DNA of 23,363 nt from a virus. Position numbers and translations under genes: made by a program. Under the pieces are notes generated by a model. That model was given only the letters and a program-made list of their open reading frames with translations. It did no database searches and had not been told where the DNA came from. Below are positions 1,150 to 13,639 of the stretch, piece after piece. The stretch is from the IMG/VR virus record IMGVR_UViG_3300029448_000460, positions 1 through 23,363 of that record; one strand, 5' to 3'. How positions within the stretch are numbered: the first letter of the stretch is position 1; each line of letters opens with the position of its first letter.

Positions 1150-1376
1150 AAGAGAGATTTTACAAACTAGATACAGAATCAGGACAAACTACATTGAACA
1201 TGGCAGAGGTGTCTGCATATACTGTTCGGGTAGTGGAACAAGGGATGTTGAAAAAGAACACATTTACGGTTGAAGTACATCTGAAGAGTGGAACTATATT
1301 CACTACTCATATGTCTGAAGCACAACTAACTGTGTGGGAGGATGTATTCTTCCCTAAGTCGGTGGTGAAAGAATGA
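1146..1376 (+). CDS. hypothetical small protein, 76 aa
   Basis: A small, probably beta-rich protein (alternating polar/hydrophobic stretches such as TFTVEVHLKSGTIFTTHMS). It has no motif I can assign. The start has a strong GGAGG Shine-Dalgarno with exactly 7 nt between GAGG and ATG. It overlaps both neighbours by 4 nt, so it belongs to the coupled operon. Confidence 0.65.
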   Translation: MKERFYKLDTESGQTTLNMAEVSAYTVRVVEQGMLKKNTFTVEVHLKSGTIFTTHMSEAQLTVWEDVFFPKSVVKE

Positions 1377-1477
1377 GAAATGGTAAATTTAACAGACACG
1401 AAACAGCAGTAGAGAGAAAACTCGATAGAATAGTCGAGTTACTTGAGAAACAAAATAAGTTATTGGAGGAAGAGTAA
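1373..1477 (+). CDS. short coiled-coil-like peptide, 34 aa
   Basis: Encodes a 34-residue peptide, mostly one amphipathic, charged helix (VERKLDRIVELLEKQNKLLEEE) with leucines/isoleucines at heptad-like spacing, so it could form a short coiled coil. It overlaps the upstream stop (ATGA) and the downstream start (TAATG), which favours a real gene. A GGTGGTGAAAGA site precedes the ATG. Function unknown; it may be a partner of the adjacent double-PIP peptide. Confidence 0.5.
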   Translation: MRNGKFNRHETAVERKLDRIVELLEKQNKLLEEE

Positions 1478-1578
1478 TGAATAAAGAAAACAGCAGACAA
1501 ACAACATTGGATGAGTTTGGTTTTGTCTTGGAAACAAGACAGACCACTCTAGAAGAGTTCGGTTTTGAGTTTGATTGA
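1477..1578 (+). CDS. 33-aa microprotein made of two PCNA-binding (PIP-box-like) motifs
   Basis: The peptide is almost entirely a tandem repeat: RQTTLDEFGFVLE (residues 7-19) and RQTTLEEFGFEFD (21-33), period 14. Each contains Q-x-x-L-x-x-F, the core of the PIP box by which replication proteins dock on PCNA. Position 8 is Gly followed by Phe, whereas a canonical PIP box has an aromatic there. The ATG follows GGAGG with a 7-nt spacer and overlaps the preceding stop as TAATG. A PCNA-like clamp and a polymerase ending in a PIP box are encoded further right. It could bridge two clamp subunits or compete with other clamp clients, as the small TIP inhibitor does in Thermococcus; both are inferences. 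Confidence 0.7.
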   Translation: MNKENSRQTTLDEFGFVLETRQTTLEEFGFEFD

Positions 1579-1590
1579 TATGGAGCAACA

Positions 1591-1598
1591 TATTTATC
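1591..1598 (+). promoter_or_regulatory. TATA-box-like element for the lipoprotein gene
   Basis: TATTTATC is centred about 27 nt before the ATG at 1622, the distance expected for an archaeal TATA box driving a leaderless transcript. The lipoprotein start lacks the strong GAGG site of its neighbours. Position and base composition are the only evidence. Confidence 0.3.
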
Positions 1599-1621
1599 CT
1601 TCCTATCTCTGCGACAGGACG

Positions 1622-4643: not shown

Positions 4644-4963
4644 TGTTATGTCCTAGATGTAATCTTAGGGAAACAGAGGCATCTCTGTGTTCTGTTTGTA
4701 TGCTGAAGATTCAGTTTCACAAACCGGAACAAGAGTGGGTAACAGATGACGAGATAATGAATCATCATGTTATGCAGAAAATAAAGCGAGGCTGCAACGA
4801 ATGTGGTAGCCACTCCTTTGCGTATGAAGCAGGAGTAAAAGAAGAAAACGAACTAAAGTGGTTTATCATTTTAGTTAATTGTGGGGCTTGTAACAAAGCC
4901 TACGAAGAAATAATGGAAGTGAGGGTGTTAAATGAGCCTATTAAATATGAAGAATCAGAATAG
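4640..4963 (+). CDS. two-zinc-ribbon hypothetical protein, 107 aa
   Basis: Two Cys pairs lie close together at the N-terminus (CPRC and CSVC, about residues 4-20), and two more in the middle (CNEC and CGAC, about residues 52-83). This suggests two zinc-binding units, possibly a rubredoxin-like knuckle followed by a ribbon. Such proteins often act in transcription or as adaptors, but nothing here fixes a role. It begins in the stop of the LAGLIDADG-like gene (ATGA) after AGGGG and overlaps the next start by 32 nt. A second ATG lies at 4643. Confidence 0.65.
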   Translation: MMLCPRCNLRETEASLCSVCMLKIQFHKPEQEWVTDDEIMNHHVMQKIKRGCNECGSHSFAYEAGVKEENELKWFIILVNCGACNKAYEEIMEVRVLNEPIKYEESE

Positions 4964-5783
4964 AACAATAATAATAGTTGGCAAAGACGGAACAGATAAA
5001 TTACAAAAAGCGATGAAACTCGTTTCTGATAATCCTATCGTTCAGTATGCGAATGAGTTTGACATTGAAGATAATTACAGCATACCAGCAGATGTTGGTA
5101 TTGTCATTAGAGAATGCAACTACAAGCCTAATGTTGAATTAATTAGGAGAACTATACTAGAGTATAGAGGTCAGGTAGTTCTTACATCAATCAATCAGAA
5201 AGATGTACCAAAGAAACTGTTTAACTTATGTAAGTTGAAGCGTGGTAAGAAACTTGAGATTGATGAGATAAAGGAACTAGCACCACGTTCAAATGACCCT
5301 CATAATTTCGATACAGATATATTCACATTGGTTGGGGACTATCTTAGAAACCCCAATCGAGATTTAATAATGAATAGTTTGAAGATTAGCAAACCATCAG
5401 ATACTCAATTCGTATCATGGTTAGCACCAAACATACATCCTAACAAACTGATGTTTGTGGATGCACAAGTAAAGAGAAGGTGGAACTCTGATTACTTTTA
5501 CGAAATGCTTGCATATTCTCATGACGGGAGAATGCAACGTAAGATGACTCCACCACAAAGAAAGACATATTCTATAATACCGAAAATTCTGAGGAAGTTA
5601 AAAATGCGACATTCTCAGGTTTATCTTTTCAAAGACTTATTGAAAAACCCTGATTTTAGGGACTATTGTAGAAAAACACTTTCTTCCTCTGAAACAAGAA
5701 CATTAGGACTTGGAGAAAAGAAGAGGAGGAAAAAGACAACACCAGTTGTCGCCACTGTTGGATTGTCAAGGTGGCTAAATTAA
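4932..5783 (+). CDS. degenerate RFC large-subunit-like clamp-loader protein, 283 aa
   Basis: Residues 13-30 (IIIVGKDGTDKLQKAMKL) sit where an AAA+ P-loop would be but lack the GKT signature. No Walker B DE is visible. Residues 82-113 (VVLTSINQKDVPKKLFNLC, then KLKRGKKLEI) resemble the sensor-1 strand and following segment of RFC-L. A helical collar-like region follows (SWLAPNIHPNKLMFVDAQ). The C-terminus is a basic linker (KKRRKK) and VGLSRWLN, which matches the polymerase-type PIP ending (VGLTSWLN in Pyrococcus) except that the leading Gln is Thr. The gene lies directly before the RFC small subunit. I infer a non-ATPase large subunit of the loader. GAGG-N7-ATG supports start 4932. Confidence 0.5.
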   Translation: MSLLNMKNQNRTIIIVGKDGTDKLQKAMKLVSDNPIVQYANEFDIEDNYSIPADVGIVIRECNYKPNVELIRRTILEYRGQVVLTSINQKDVPKKLFNLCKLKRGKKLEIDEIKELAPRSNDPHNFDTDIFTLVGDYLRNPNRDLIMNSLKISKPSDTQFVSWLAPNIHPNKLMFVDAQVKRRWNSDYFYEMLAYSHDGRMQRKMTPPQRKTYSIIPKILRKLKMRHSQVYLFKDLLKNPDFRDYCRKTLSSSETRTLGLGEKKRRKKTTPVVATVGLSRWLN

Positions 5784-9475: not shown

Positions 9476-9958
9476 ATGAAGAAGATAGGGATTAATATTG
9501 CTAATACAACCCGTTCCTCTAGCATGAAAAGAAGCAAGAAGTTCAAATGGAATCAAGATACATTAGGGCATTTTGGTGAACGGGATTGTGTGTGGTGTGG
9601 GGAGATGTTTTCAAAACCCACTGCTGTCAGTAAAATCTGTTCGGATGAATGTAGGAAGTTGTATATGAGAGAGTATTACAGGGAAAGAGATGCAAGAAAC
9701 AAGAAGAACCCTGAGTGGGTAGCAAAGAGACGGAAACAGCACCGAGATAATTACCATAGAAAAATGACTAACCCTGAGTATGTTGAACGCATCAATAAAG
9801 AAGCAAGAGAGAAGTATGCGGCTGACCCTACTTACAAGCAGAAAAAAATAGAAAGTGTGAAGAAATCCTCATTAAAGCCTGAGAATGCAGAGAGGATAAA
9901 GAAATACCAAAAGGAATATAGAAAGAGGAATAAAAATGAGAATAGAAATAAACAATAA
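9476..9958 (+). CDS. basic zinc-finger protein, HNH-associated type, 160 aa
   Basis: A treble-clef-like Cys cluster (CVWC, then CSDEC about 20 residues on, roughly residues 38-63) is followed by a long, highly charged helical region with repeats of the form NPEYVxRxxKxxREKY. This combination is common at the N-terminus of phage HNH endonucleases, but no HNH catalytic core follows, so it is best seen as a DNA- or RNA-binding protein. ATG 9476 has AGAGGATG before it; a tiny 11-codon frame at 9460 overlaps the region. The 3' end overlaps PCNA by 23 nt, and the PCNA ribosome-binding motif lies inside this gene's last codons. Confidence 0.65.
   Translation: MKKIGINIANTTRSSSMKRSKKFKWNQDTLGHFGERDCVWCGEMFSKPTAVSKICSDECRKLYMREYYRERDARNKKNPEWVAKRRKQHRDNYHRKMTNPEYVERINKEAREKYAADPTYKQKKIESVKKSSLKPENAERIKKYQKEYRKRNKNENRNKQ
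9925..9938 (+). promoter_or_regulatory. ribosome-binding/start motif GAGGAATAAAAATG (PCNA copy)
   Basis: Identical to the copies before ligase and polymerase: GAGG, spacer AATAAAA, ATG at 9936. It lies within the coding end of the zinc-finger gene. Confidence 0.7.
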
Positions 9959-10703
9959 AACGCTAACAAACGCAATAGAAGATGTATGGATGAAAGGAAA
10001 GTATCACAATGGAGATTCAGCAAAGAACAGTCAATTAACAGGCTACGCTATGCTTGAACTAGTTGAGGACAATATATTGAATCTATACAACGCAGACAAT
10101 CAAACTATCTGTCGGGTATCTATTCCTGTAATAAGAAACATAGGAAGAGATGAACACAACATGATGGTTGTTGAGATAGATAAGATTCTAAAGTATCTAA
10201 AAACATTCACAAGCGATACTGTTAGGTTGGAAGTAGCAGACTATATTCTACTTCAATCAGAAGGTGGCGGTAAAAGAGCAAGCCTTCCTTTAGTTGTGAA
10301 TCATCCAAATGCAGCAATGATTGCTAGGATTCAAGGATTTACAATCACTCCTGAAAATCCTGTATTCAGTAGTGTTACCTTTGAGTCTGTTATTACAACA
10401 GGGTCAAACATCCTTACAGATGCAGTCAAGACTTGTGATGTAATCAACAATGCAAAGTATCTGTTTAATACAGATGGAGTAACATTACATATCTCTAGTA
10501 GAAAGACTGACATCGACATGGTAGATGTAGAAGTATCTACTCTAACGATTAATGGCGACCCATCAACCGTAGAAGTTACAGGCCAGTTCCACAAGTTCTT
10601 TCGTGGTAGTGTTCCTGTCACTATCTATTTGAAAGACGAATCTCCTGTCATTTGGGCAGGTGAAGATAGAATATTAATCAAAGCCCCATATATTACACGG
10701 TAA
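9936..10703 (+). CDS. pcn: PCNA-like DNA sliding clamp, 255 aa
   Basis: Length and two-domain pattern match archaeal PCNA (about 245-250 aa). The N-terminal half (residues 1-115) ends with an interdomain-connector-like stretch (PLVVNHPNAAM). The C-terminal half has strands such as VEVTGQFHKFF and ends IWAGEDRILIKAPYITR, where family members have a strand then YYLAPK/APYI-like ends. It is divergent, but the next gene is the polymerase and the RFC ATPase is nearby. It would ring DNA and hold polymerase and other PIP-box clients. The start is fixed by GAGG-N7-ATG. One gene implies a homotrimer. Confidence 0.85.
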   Translation: MRIEINNKTLTNAIEDVWMKGKYHNGDSAKNSQLTGYAMLELVEDNILNLYNADNQTICRVSIPVIRNIGRDEHNMMVVEIDKILKYLKTFTSDTVRLEVADYILLQSEGGGKRASLPLVVNHPNAAMIARIQGFTITPENPVFSSVTFESVITTGSNILTDAVKTCDVINNAKYLFNTDGVTLHISSRKTDIDMVDVEVSTLTINGDPSTVEVTGQFHKFFRGSVPVTIYLKDESPVIWAGEDRILIKAPYITR

Positions 10704-10717: not shown

Positions 10718-12394
10718 ATAATAGCAAATACAACAGAAGGAGTTCTTCTAAGATGGAGGGATGAAAACAACAAGCGTATGGAAAAATCTGTAACGTTCAG
10801 TGAGTTTTCTCCTTACTTCTTTGTTGCTCAATCTGATATTGTTAACCCTAGTGAAACCACTAGAATACCAGTATCAGAAGGCTACCGAGGTAGAGAAAGA
10901 TTCTTTGCCACACTCTCATATGAGACAGGAGATTGGGTAAATCTTCAGGGAGAAACATTGTTGAAAGTAACTTGGACTCCATACAAAACAGGTAAGTCTC
11001 TTGCTAGAAGTGTATCACATAAGATAAGAACATACTTTCATGATAGAGCAATAGTAACCTATGAAGCAGATGTTCAGCATCATTACAGATACGCTATCGA
11101 CCAATTAGATGTTATGCCCGAATACAATCTACGAAAGTGGTATTGGGATATGGAATGGATGCAAGGTGGAGAACATGATGGGGCAATAACCGCTATTGTT
11201 GTTTATGACAACTACGATGATGCTTACTATACTCTAACGTGGCAACCTGATTCTGAGGAATCAGAAAGAACCATACTTGAAAGATTCATTATGATGATTA
11301 CAGAGAAAGACCCCGATATGCTCATCTCTTGGTTTGGATGGAAGTTCGATGTACCGAAGTTAATTGAAAGGCTTCATGTAAATGGTATCAGTCCTAAACT
11401 TCTATCACCAGTACAAGAAGTCACAGGAGTAGAGTGGAACATTAAGGAACGAAGAATCATACTAAAGGAGAAACAAATCTCAAACTATTCACCTATCGCA
11501 CAACCAATCAAAGGTAGAATATGTGTTCCGCTTGACTTAGCATTTGAAAGACAGTGGAATGACGCACAAAGAGGAACACTACCTTCCTTATCTCTAGACT
11601 ATGTATCTGAGAGTGTATTAGGTGAAAAGAAGTTAGTAAGTGAAAAGTTTCCCGACAAGAATGAGTTCTTCAGAAGGGGATGGCAAGAAGACACTGAAAC
11701 ATATCTAGAGTATGCTGTTAAAGACGTTGAGTTAATCAAGAGGATAGACGATGAGAACTTCACCACTGAAGCGATACTCTCGTTACAACGTTTACTGATT
11801 GCTCCGTTTGATGCTTGCTTCTATGCTTCCAACATGGGTGGAATATACTTCATGAGAAACGCATCATGGAAAGCCCCTACGGGTAGAAAAGGAGACAGGG
11901 TAGAGTATGATGGGGCAATGGTCTATGACCCTCTCAGTGAGGCTACAAATGGTCTTCATTTGGGTGTTGCAGCATTTGACTTTGCTGGTCTATATCCATC
12001 TATGATGATAGCAAGAAACATATCTTGGGAAACGAAGTCAACAAGCACAACTGAGTTTGCTGTAAATCTGAAGACTCCTAAAGACTTCTCTGAAATCAAG
12101 GAACATGACATGAGATATTACAAGACTGACAATTTAGGATTGCTACCTAAAGCAGTCTTAGAACTAAAACAGTTGAGAAACGAATACAAACTAAAAATGA
12201 AAGAAAGTGAAAGTAAAAGTGAATATGTGAAATGGAACAACAACCAACTCGCAGTTAAGAGACTGATGGCATCCTTCTATGGTATCATTGCGTATCAGGG
12301 ATTCGGTTGGGCTGATGTTGACTTAGCAGCAAGCATAACTGCAAGTGCAAGGGAAGCCATTCGCATTGCAGCGTTCAAAGTGAGGGAATTATAA
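10715..12394 (+). CDS. polB-N: B-family DNA polymerase, N-terminal part (exonuclease, motifs A and B), 559 aa
   Basis: Carries the 3'-5' exonuclease motifs Exo I WDMEW (Asp145, Glu147), Exo II WFGWKFDVP (Asp212) and Exo III YAVKD (Tyr333, Asp337), so proofreading should be intact. Polymerase motif A is DFAGLYPSM (422-430). Motif B is KRLMASFYG (515-523), with Ala where Asn is usual. The chain then stops at Leu559, just before the strand carrying motif C. That strand starts a separate gene at 12704. The C-terminus (SAREAIRIAAFKVREL) aligns with the helix before motif C in intact enzymes, so little seems lost. The next gene overlaps its stop (TAATG). The two parts probably assemble. Confidence 0.95.
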   Translation: MIIANTTEGVLLRWRDENNKRMEKSVTFSEFSPYFFVAQSDIVNPSETTRIPVSEGYRGRERFFATLSYETGDWVNLQGETLLKVTWTPYKTGKSLARSVSHKIRTYFHDRAIVTYEADVQHHYRYAIDQLDVMPEYNLRKWYWDMEWMQGGEHDGAITAIVVYDNYDDAYYTLTWQPDSEESERTILERFIMMITEKDPDMLISWFGWKFDVPKLIERLHVNGISPKLLSPVQEVTGVEWNIKERRIILKEKQISNYSPIAQPIKGRICVPLDLAFERQWNDAQRGTLPSLSLDYVSESVLGEKKLVSEKFPDKNEFFRRGWQEDTETYLEYAVKDVELIKRIDDENFTTEAILSLQRLLIAPFDACFYASNMGGIYFMRNASWKAPTGRKGDRVEYDGAMVYDPLSEATNGLHLGVAAFDFAGLYPSMMIARNISWETKSTSTTEFAVNLKTPKDFSEIKEHDMRYYKTDNLGLLPKAVLELKQLRNEYKLKMKESESKSEYVKWNNNQLAVKRLMASFYGIIAYQGFGWADVDLAASITASAREAIRIAAFKVREL

Positions 12395-12594
12395 TGCCAA
12401 TTAAGAGTGCAACAATAGATTTAGCAAACGTGTCTGAAGAAGACACTAAATCTGAGACTGAACTTAGAAAACAAGCGTTCTCACAAATTCTAAAGGATGC
12501 TAGGTTAGTCGGTAAGGTTCTGAGTCGATTACTAATCGGATTTGTGTTTGTATATGGTTTGGTTTCGATATTACAGGATGTGAACCTAATATGA
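12394..12594 (+). CDS. small membrane protein inside the polymerase split, 66 aa
   Basis: A polar, charged N-terminal ~40 residues are followed by one hydrophobic span (LLIGFVFVYGLVSIL). Not recognised. It starts in the stop codon of polB-N with GAGG 8 nt upstream, and its stop overlaps the next start (ATGA). This makes it translationally coupled to the polymerase halves. It could anchor replication at the membrane or belong to a lysis/holin-type pair with the next gene; both are guesses. Confidence 0.6.
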   Translation: MPIKSATIDLANVSEEDTKSETELRKQAFSQILKDARLVGKVLSRLLIGFVFVYGLVSILQDVNLI

Positions 12595-12707
12595 ACTTAG
12601 AACAGTGGTCACAAGACCGATTTGCAACACTAGCACTACTCAGAACAGTGTTTGGGTTTGTAAAAGTCATTATTGCTGCTGTTATAGCAGTGGAGTTGTT
12701 AACATGA
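12591..12707 (+). CDS. second small membrane protein inside the polymerase split, 38 aa
   Basis: Encodes about 15 polar residues (MNLEQWSQDRFATLA) and then one hydrophobic helix (VFGFVKVIIAAVIAVELL). It overlaps the upstream stop by ATGA, and its own stop overlaps the polB-C start at 12704. The span shares a loose R-x-x-x-GFV pattern with the neighbouring 66-aa protein, which hints at duplication but is too short to prove it. Its Shine-Dalgarno is weak, so coupling is the likely mode of translation. Confidence 0.5.
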   Translation: MNLEQWSQDRFATLALLRTVFGFVKVIIAAVIAVELLT

Positions 12708-13639
12708 AGGTAGTTTACGGACATACAGATTCAATTTACGTTGATATCGAAGATAATAGCATAGAAACTGCTAAACAGACTCTGAAAATACTCAATGACC
12801 ATGTTAGAAAAGCATTTCCTAACGTTATGGGGCTAGAAGAACACCCTGTAACCCTAGAGTTTGAGAAATACTTCCGAACTTTAGGAGTTGGAGCGACAAA
12901 GAACAGAAATGCAGGTCTAATTACTTGGAAAGACGGTGATTTCCTCGATGAAGAGGAGTTTACGATGACTGGATTCACTGCTAAGAGAGTTTCATTGACA
13001 AAACTAGCGAAAGAAGTGCAACTTGCTGTTCTGAACATGTGGGTTGAGGGTAAGTCTGAGGAAGATTTAGTGTCTTATCTAAATGTGAAATATAACAATG
13101 TAATGAGAGGAAACATCCCTCTTACAGATGTTCTACAACGAAGCAGATACAGAGAAGAAAGATTCCAAGTTGTTTGTAAGACTTGTAGCCCAAAGGCTAG
13201 ATTTGACAAAGGGTGGAAGAACAAGTCAATCAGCGTTTTTGATTTAATGGCTCATGGTGGTTGTATTGATGACAATGGAAGAGTGATGGAACACAACAAT
13301 TTTGTAACTGTCGGTGGTAAGAGACCTACCTTTGGTTCAGGAGTTGAGGGAGTATTGTTCAGTCATTCACAAGGATACGAAAAGATAGAAGACACATATC
13401 TATACTTAAGAATTAAAGATTGTAGAGAAAACTACCTACATCCGTTGACTAGACAATTCACAACACCTAACTATGTTTCTCGTTTAACTGCTAGTGAGTT
13501 TGGGGATTTCACTCCTGATTGGGAACATTATGCTGAGTCAGTTGTAAAGAAGGCTGAACCTATATTCAGAGCAATGGGATGGAACATTCAACAGATTAGA
13601 AAAGATAGCCAACAGACATCATTGGAGGATTGGTTTTGA
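12704..13639 (+). CDS. polB-C: B-family DNA polymerase, C-terminal part (motif C, thumb, PIP box), 311 aa
   Basis: Starts directly on the motif C strand: VVYGHTDSIY, corresponding to YGDTDS with His for the first Asp and the second, catalytic Asp kept. KNRNAGL matches the KKRYAGL region of the palm/thumb. A CxxC pair (CKTC) and a later Cys lie in the thumb region, unusual for viral B polymerases. The C-terminus QQTSLEDWF is a PIP box (Q-x-x-L-x-x-W-F) for PCNA. With polB-N the total is 870 aa, normal for the family. The frame is open upstream to a GTG at 12605, but ATG 12704 follows GGAG by 8 nt and overlaps the preceding stop. Confidence 0.93.
   Translation: MKVVYGHTDSIYVDIEDNSIETAKQTLKILNDHVRKAFPNVMGLEEHPVTLEFEKYFRTLGVGATKNRNAGLITWKDGDFLDEEEFTMTGFTAKRVSLTKLAKEVQLAVLNMWVEGKSEEDLVSYLNVKYNNVMRGNIPLTDVLQRSRYREERFQVVCKTCSPKARFDKGWKNKSISVFDLMAHGGCIDDNGRVMEHNNFVTVGGKRPTFGSGVEGVLFSHSQGYEKIEDTYLYLRIKDCRENYLHPLTRQFTTPNYVSRLTASEFGDFTPDWEHYAESVVKKAEPIFRAMGWNIQQIRKDSQQTSLEDWF

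Follow-up and report, generated by a model that had tools for sequence, protein, structure and literature searches.

What might a 33-residue gene product that consists of little more than two PIP-box-like motifs do in a virus that appears to carry its own sliding clamp? PIP-boxes are normally the tails of enzymes. The gene lies in a 23.4-kb virus fragment, the whole of which (23,363 nucleotides) is referred to here as the window; the gene itself is called micro-PIP. Its immediate surroundings are as follows.

1373-1477, plus strand: upstream ORF of 34 amino acids (RHExAVERKLDxI...), an equivalent of which also lies upstream in the tandem-clade relatives
1465-1469, plus strand: Shine-Dalgarno-like GGAGG, 7 nt before the micro-PIP ATG at 1477
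1477-1578, plus strand: micro-PIP ORF, 33 amino acids with two PIP-like motifs
1495-1524, plus strand: motif copy 1, RQTTLDEFGF
1537-1566, plus strand: motif copy 2, RQTTLEEFGF

Translation of the micro-PIP ORF gives MNKENSRQTTLDEFGFVLETRQTTLEEFGFEFD, followed by a stop codon. The sequence-only reading had described a Q-x-x-L-x-x-F motif doubled with a period of 14 residues and a GGAGG-N7-ATG start coupled to the preceding gene, and both descriptions hold: the glutamines are residues 8 and 22, and the stop codon of the 34-residue ORF overlaps the micro-PIP start codon (TAATG). The peptide is acidic. Six of the first ten codons differ between the two motif copies, five of them silently and one as a D/E exchange, which excludes a recent slip duplication. 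The 33-residue product has no domain match, and phmmer returned no match to it in the PDB. Matches to Q..[LIMV]..[FYW] are few in the other genes of the window (one inside the ligase, one in a 160-residue ORF at 9476, and one in the PolB tail, QQTSLEDWF), the last of these being the sole terminal one.

Relatives of the virus were first gathered by homology of the clamp alone, without use of the motif. Whether the short frame is kept in related genomes had been named beforehand as one test that could refute the proposal, and it was passed: micro-PIP is present at the same site in 12 of 12 clamp-chosen relatives whose contigs reach far enough upstream, with clamp identity down to 57%. The site is occupied by a tandem form in L004, L010, L012, L014, L015, L016 and L018, and by a single-motif form in L009, L019, L027, L029 and L030. 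The clamp of L009 is 79% identical to that of the window, and its micropeptide is MRIKLTINNSRQTTLEEYGFIFN; that of L019 is MNIENSRQTTLVEFGLIFN, a peptide found unchanged in L020 and L021. Within the syntenic tandem set the pN/pS over the 22 motif codons is 0.16, as compared with 0.19 for the clamp gene and 0.23 for the upstream small ORF, all of these being pairwise counts on small sets.

A degenerate DNA pattern for RQTxLxEFGF was used to search IMG/VR for the wider family. It matched 61 loci, approximately 57 of them short peptides with the motif, many of which are near copies, so that the counts are not independent. A slightly stricter pattern gave one match in 257 Gb of bacterial and archaeal genomes, an unrelated one on a Maricaulis contig, and tblastn of the micropeptide against a phage collection found nothing. 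Relaxing the pattern led to 109 matching stretches and to further peptide classes; L034, L043, L071, L088, L189, L195, L212 and L228 were set aside as unrelated, and L230 is a doubtful member. The resulting family comprises peptides of about 19-85 residues with one or two motifs and no catalytic domain, and an SD-like sequence precedes the ATG in many of the classes. A length of just 33 codons might in itself suggest a chance or relic ORF. This explanation is refuted by conservation and has a negligible probability, given the synteny, the pN/pS ratio, the SD sites and the number of relatives. As judged from sequence, the best explanation of ORF 1477-1578 is that it belongs to a virus-specific family of stand-alone PIP-box micropeptides.

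The scan pattern itself fixes residues, which partly explains why R, Q, T, L, E, F and G do not vary among the scanned peptides. No such selection by the scan applies to the partner copies within tandem ORFs, which keep Q1, L/I4, E/D6 and F/Y7, while positions 2, 3, 5, 8 and 9 drift (e.g., RQRTLEEFGF, KQKTLKDYGL, GQTKLTDFYEL, GQTKLTDYFDL, NQTRLTDFDKQ, RQAKITEFVE, RQTVITEFVE and RQMTLIEFGL). Since the list of partner copies was drawn with the expression Q..[LIMV]..[FYW], anchors 1, 4 and 7 owe something to selection here too; the acidic residue at position 6 does not, and it is present in 17 of the 17 copies listed. One partner copy outside this expression, QTKLDEHGI of L206, has His at position 7.

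Both window copies possess the PIP-box anchors, namely Q1, a hydrophobic residue at position 4 and an aromatic at position 7. In place of the second aromatic at position 8 both have Gly, a departure from the canonical motif that had been pointed out at the outset; the Gly is itself conserved. The second aromatic is also absent from some accepted PIPs, such as that of Archaeoglobus fulgidus RNase H (PMC3504372), and the partner copies of L045 and L048 read FY and YF at positions 7-8. The L045 copy, QTKLTDFY, is nearly identical to QTSMTDFY of p21, the PIP sequence of which is RQTSMTDFYHSKRRL (PMC6881253). We read the motif as a PIP-box because the residues that stay fixed while others drift are the PIP anchors, and on this comparison of sequences the original description of the motifs as PIP-box-like appears sound.

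Two further features lie directly downstream of the gene.

1585-1603, plus strand: conserved DNA element GCAACATATTTATCCTTCC, directly behind the micro-PIP stop codon
1622-2101, plus strand: downstream lipoprotein (lipobox LAGC), which other viruses carry as a fusion with the motif

The DNA element is unique in the window and nearly identical in the tandem-clade relatives L004, L010, L012, L014, L015, L016 and L018; it may serve the lipoprotein gene as a promoter. Several viruses have the motif joined in frame with the signal peptide of the adjacent lipoprotein, as in MNEENSRQTTLKEFGLVFLVAVMLSGCAG (loci L187, L188, L190-L192, L196, L197, L206, L208-L211, L218 and L223-L226), an arrangement that puts the PIP to the cytosolic side of the signal peptide. 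These fusions, the frequent position of the gene in front of a lipoprotein gene and the PDB search without a match would all suit a peptide that is no PIP at all but a short linear motif directed at some other host protein, or a piece of the signal or leader of a lipoprotein. We regard this as improbable. The fixed residues are exactly the PIP anchors, and many other micropeptide classes have no lipoprotein within 420 bp, the gene lying there behind PolB or between the primase and the ERCC4 nuclease. The motif is therefore more than a leader for the lipoprotein gene, and a pure leader is rejected. That the micro-PIP gene is real, conserved, virus-specific and probably clamp-binding is, as a joint claim drawn from the sequence comparisons, one that we consider likely.

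The question of which clamp such a peptide would bind involves two other gene products of the window.

9936-10703, plus strand: viral sliding clamp with PCNA fold, either a candidate target or the clamp that the virus keeps for itself
12605-13639, plus strand: C-terminal part of PolB, ending in the viral client PIP QQTSLEDWF

Pfam PCNA models, including PCNA_C, detected neither the window clamp nor the viral clamps related to it. The AlphaFold2 model of the window clamp, based on an alignment of 29 viral relatives, has a pLDDT of 93 and a pTM of 0.90, and Foldseek matches it to archaeal PCNA with a probability of 1.0 and TM scores of 0.72-0.78. The predicted two-domain PCNA clamp fold thus bears out the suggestion that the virus encodes its own PCNA. 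The 29 clamps share twelve invariant columns, including A250 and P251 near the C-terminus, which we take to be the same Ala-Pro as in the PIP pocket of PCNA. In human PCNA, residues 251-253 contribute to this pocket (PMC6881253).

The replication genes of the window further include an ATP-dependent ligase, an RFC small subunit, an ERCC4/HhH nuclease, a PD-(D/E)XK nuclease and a PolB split into two ORFs. PolB-NTD/CTD, PCNA, RFC-S and ligase are part of the ICTV genome description of the Aoguangviridae (Magrovirales), viruses of marine Poseidoniales (PMC10768690), and the window, by gene content alone, has the Magrovirales feature set of PolB split N/C, PCNA, RFC small subunit and ligase in one replication cluster. 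Small ORFs lie between the N- and C-terminal parts of PolB (window 12394-12707); the split matches PolB-NTD/CTD of the Aoguangviridae.

A viral-clamp profile built for the searches found a relative in 32 of 49 records and subsequently in others; the records still without one are mostly fragments. Three large records that at first seemed to lack a clamp (118, 75 and 56 kb) each have a candidate immediately before PolB. These candidates are mutually homologous; one has a weak profile match (3.8e-07), and the assignment of the other two rests on their similarity to it and on gene order. A second, very divergent clade of clamp candidates is represented by L142:2814-3569(+), L138:10381-11043(-) and L231:1047-1883(-), in which the C-terminus is IDQ in place of APY and the gene lies directly upstream of a PolB with a PIP-less tail.

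In 42 of the 42 records in which both genes were located, micro-PIP and the viral clamp share a strand and are separated by 2.5-10.4 kb. About six offsets occur: micro-PIP precedes the clamp by 8.1-8.5, 2.5-2.9, 7.5-7.7 or 9.3-10.4 kb, or follows it by 5.7-6.3 kb or, next to PolB, by 2.8-3.2 kb. The gene changes position yet stays within the replication module. The tails of the viral clamp clients differ from the micropeptides. In the wider clade of the window the C-terminus of PolB is nearly always QxxL[ED][ED]W[FW] (G038 has NLEEWF, without Q) and that of the homologues of the window protein 4932-5783 is QxGLDNWM or similar, whereas the micropeptides of the same genomes have F/Y at position 7 and mostly Gly at position 8 (FGF-type). 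The clamps of G004, G010 and G033 are so divergent that the viral-clamp profile nearly or wholly misses them; they end in IDQ rather than APY, and the PolB tails of this group (KSYFEEEIK, PKGYW and KAYGWW) are all without a PIP. The micropeptide in these genomes remains RQTTL[DE]EFGF, with its gene behind the PIP-less PolB.

One way of reading this arrangement is that the micropeptide binds the virus's own clamp, the target assumed in the sequence-only reading, and regulates it, as a weak competitor that would tune the exchange of PolB, loader and nuclease, or by holding unloaded clamps inactive until they are needed. It would account for the shared module in all 42 records, the PCNA fold with its invariant Ala-Pro where the PIP pocket of PCNA lies, the acidic L[ED][ED] common to the PolB tail and the position after PolB in three records. 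We nevertheless find it unlikely, though less so than the lipoprotein explanation above. The motif is nearly unchanged while the viral clamps drop to about 27-31% identity and beyond, it occurs with clamps that have no C-terminal Ala-Pro and with polymerases that have no PIP tail, and the viral clients have W at position 7 as opposed to F/Y in the micropeptides.

From the gene, its conservation, its PIP core, the clamp fold and the co-occurrence, all taken from sequence, we infer that the micropeptide engages a PCNA clamp at its PIP pocket, that it would occlude this pocket and keep other clients off, and that the clamp so blocked is more likely that of the archaeal host than that of the virus. 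Host replication and repair would lose their clamp, and the virus would replicate with its own divergent clamp and the W-type tail of its polymerase. A virus that supplies its own clamp is free to block that of its host, and according to the ICTV description aoguangvirids need little or nothing of the host replication factors (PMC10768690). A host target is favoured because the peptide stays constant while the viral clamps diverge, where a peptide tuned to the viral clamp would be expected to drift along with it, and because the client tails are W-type and the micropeptides FGF-type in the same genomes. Given binding, we would put the host clamp slightly ahead as the target, and the complete proposal of a stand-alone PIP decoy lodged in clamp pockets, those of the host more probably than those of the virus, stands in our judgement at about even chances on the sequence evidence. 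Three observations weigh against it. The acidic residues at positions 5-6 are common to the viral PolB tails and could mean a shared clamp; the location behind a PIP-less PolB in G004, G033 and G010 could suggest a part of the replisome; and the lipoprotein-signal fusions are unexplained by a decoy.

The doubling of the motif is far from random. Of 24 peptide classes, 8 contain a second core, whereas 20,000 shuffling trials averaged 0.16 and never exceeded 3. A clamp tree from which the three divergent clamps were omitted requires three changes of the tandem state, at least two of which well-supported branches force, and duplication thus recurred or was lost more than once. The spacing from Q to Q is 13-15 residues in the tandem variants listed, with the exception of 19 in L037 and 10 in L229. 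We estimate that a motif bound as a 3-10 turn, plus 7-8 extended residues, would reach about 40 Å at most. The distance between adjacent PIP pockets on the PCNA ring we put at 50 Å or more, and for this reason the earlier suggestion that the peptide ties neighbouring clamp subunits together is doubtful; as the main role it is rejected, the spacing being too short by this estimate and many relatives having a single copy. The tandem frequency and the changes of state on the clamp tree might also point to a viral replisome adaptor or tether, with the second motif on another clamp subunit (neighbour bridging included), another ring or the polymerase. The single copy in many relatives, including L009 with its closely related clamp, the short spacing and the lack of any other conserved segment that could hold a partner speak against such a tether, and make it a rather remote prospect. 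Under the decoy proposal the tandem copies would raise avidity or link two rings, and probably would not span adjacent subunits; rebinding at one pocket or linking of two rings is more plausible than bridging of neighbours.

Several known systems offer partial parallels. TIP, the Thermococcales inhibitor of PCNA, is a small archaeal protein that blocks the PCNA-PolB and PCNA-Fen1 interactions and for which a putative N-terminal PIP has been proposed (PMC4929162). It is, however, a cellular protein confined to the Thermococcales, with about 64 residues and a PH-like C-terminal domain, whereas the micropeptides are viral, mostly the motif alone and often doubled; the window product, at 33 residues and with no domain match, falls outside the TIP family. 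We know of no sequence relation between the micropeptides and Gp168 of phage Twort. Gp168 is likewise a small virus-made protein aimed at a host sliding clamp (PMC11139829), but sits in the DNA channel of the bacterial beta-clamp and not in the peptide pocket. The C-terminal PIP of p21 (CDKN1A) competes with PCNA clients, and its RQTSMTDFY resembles RQTTLEEFG and QTKLTDFY (PMC6881253); p21 is larger and eukaryotic and has basic flanks that give high affinity, in contrast to the acidic window peptide. SIRV2 Gp1 is an archaeal virus protein reported to contact host PCNA (PMC5537682), hypothesised to serve viral genome replication via the host clamp, whereas the window virus has its own. Spd1 of S. 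pombe contains a degenerate PIP-degron, IQGSLMDVGM, also with Gly at position 8 (PMC6881253), but lacks the aromatic at position 7 and belongs to a eukaryotic degradation pathway.

In the open-licence PMC literature searched, no description of such peptides was found. A viral family made up of little but a PIP motif would rank with the smallest known ligands dedicated to a clamp and be a source of natural peptides that bind archaeal clamps; it would also give a concrete host-takeover hypothesis for an abundant group of uncultured marine archaeal viruses. In its general form, which we advance tentatively and at somewhat less than even chances, this is that marine archaeal viruses with their own replisome encode PIP micropeptides, some of about 20 residues, which would shut the host clamp at its peptide pocket as a counterpart of p21 and TIP, and of which bivalent forms evolved repeatedly.

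Two minor observations concern other PIP-like sequences. The micropeptides of L045, L048 and L084 begin with a segment that contains cysteine, after which come two PIP-like motifs; in L045 the second of these is the copy close to the p21 PIP-box. In the window, the protein encoded at 4932-5783 ends in VATVGLSRWLN and may be part of the clamp loader or another clamp client; its homologues in L033, L065, L044, L069 and L081 have QxGLDNWM or similar PIP-like tails.
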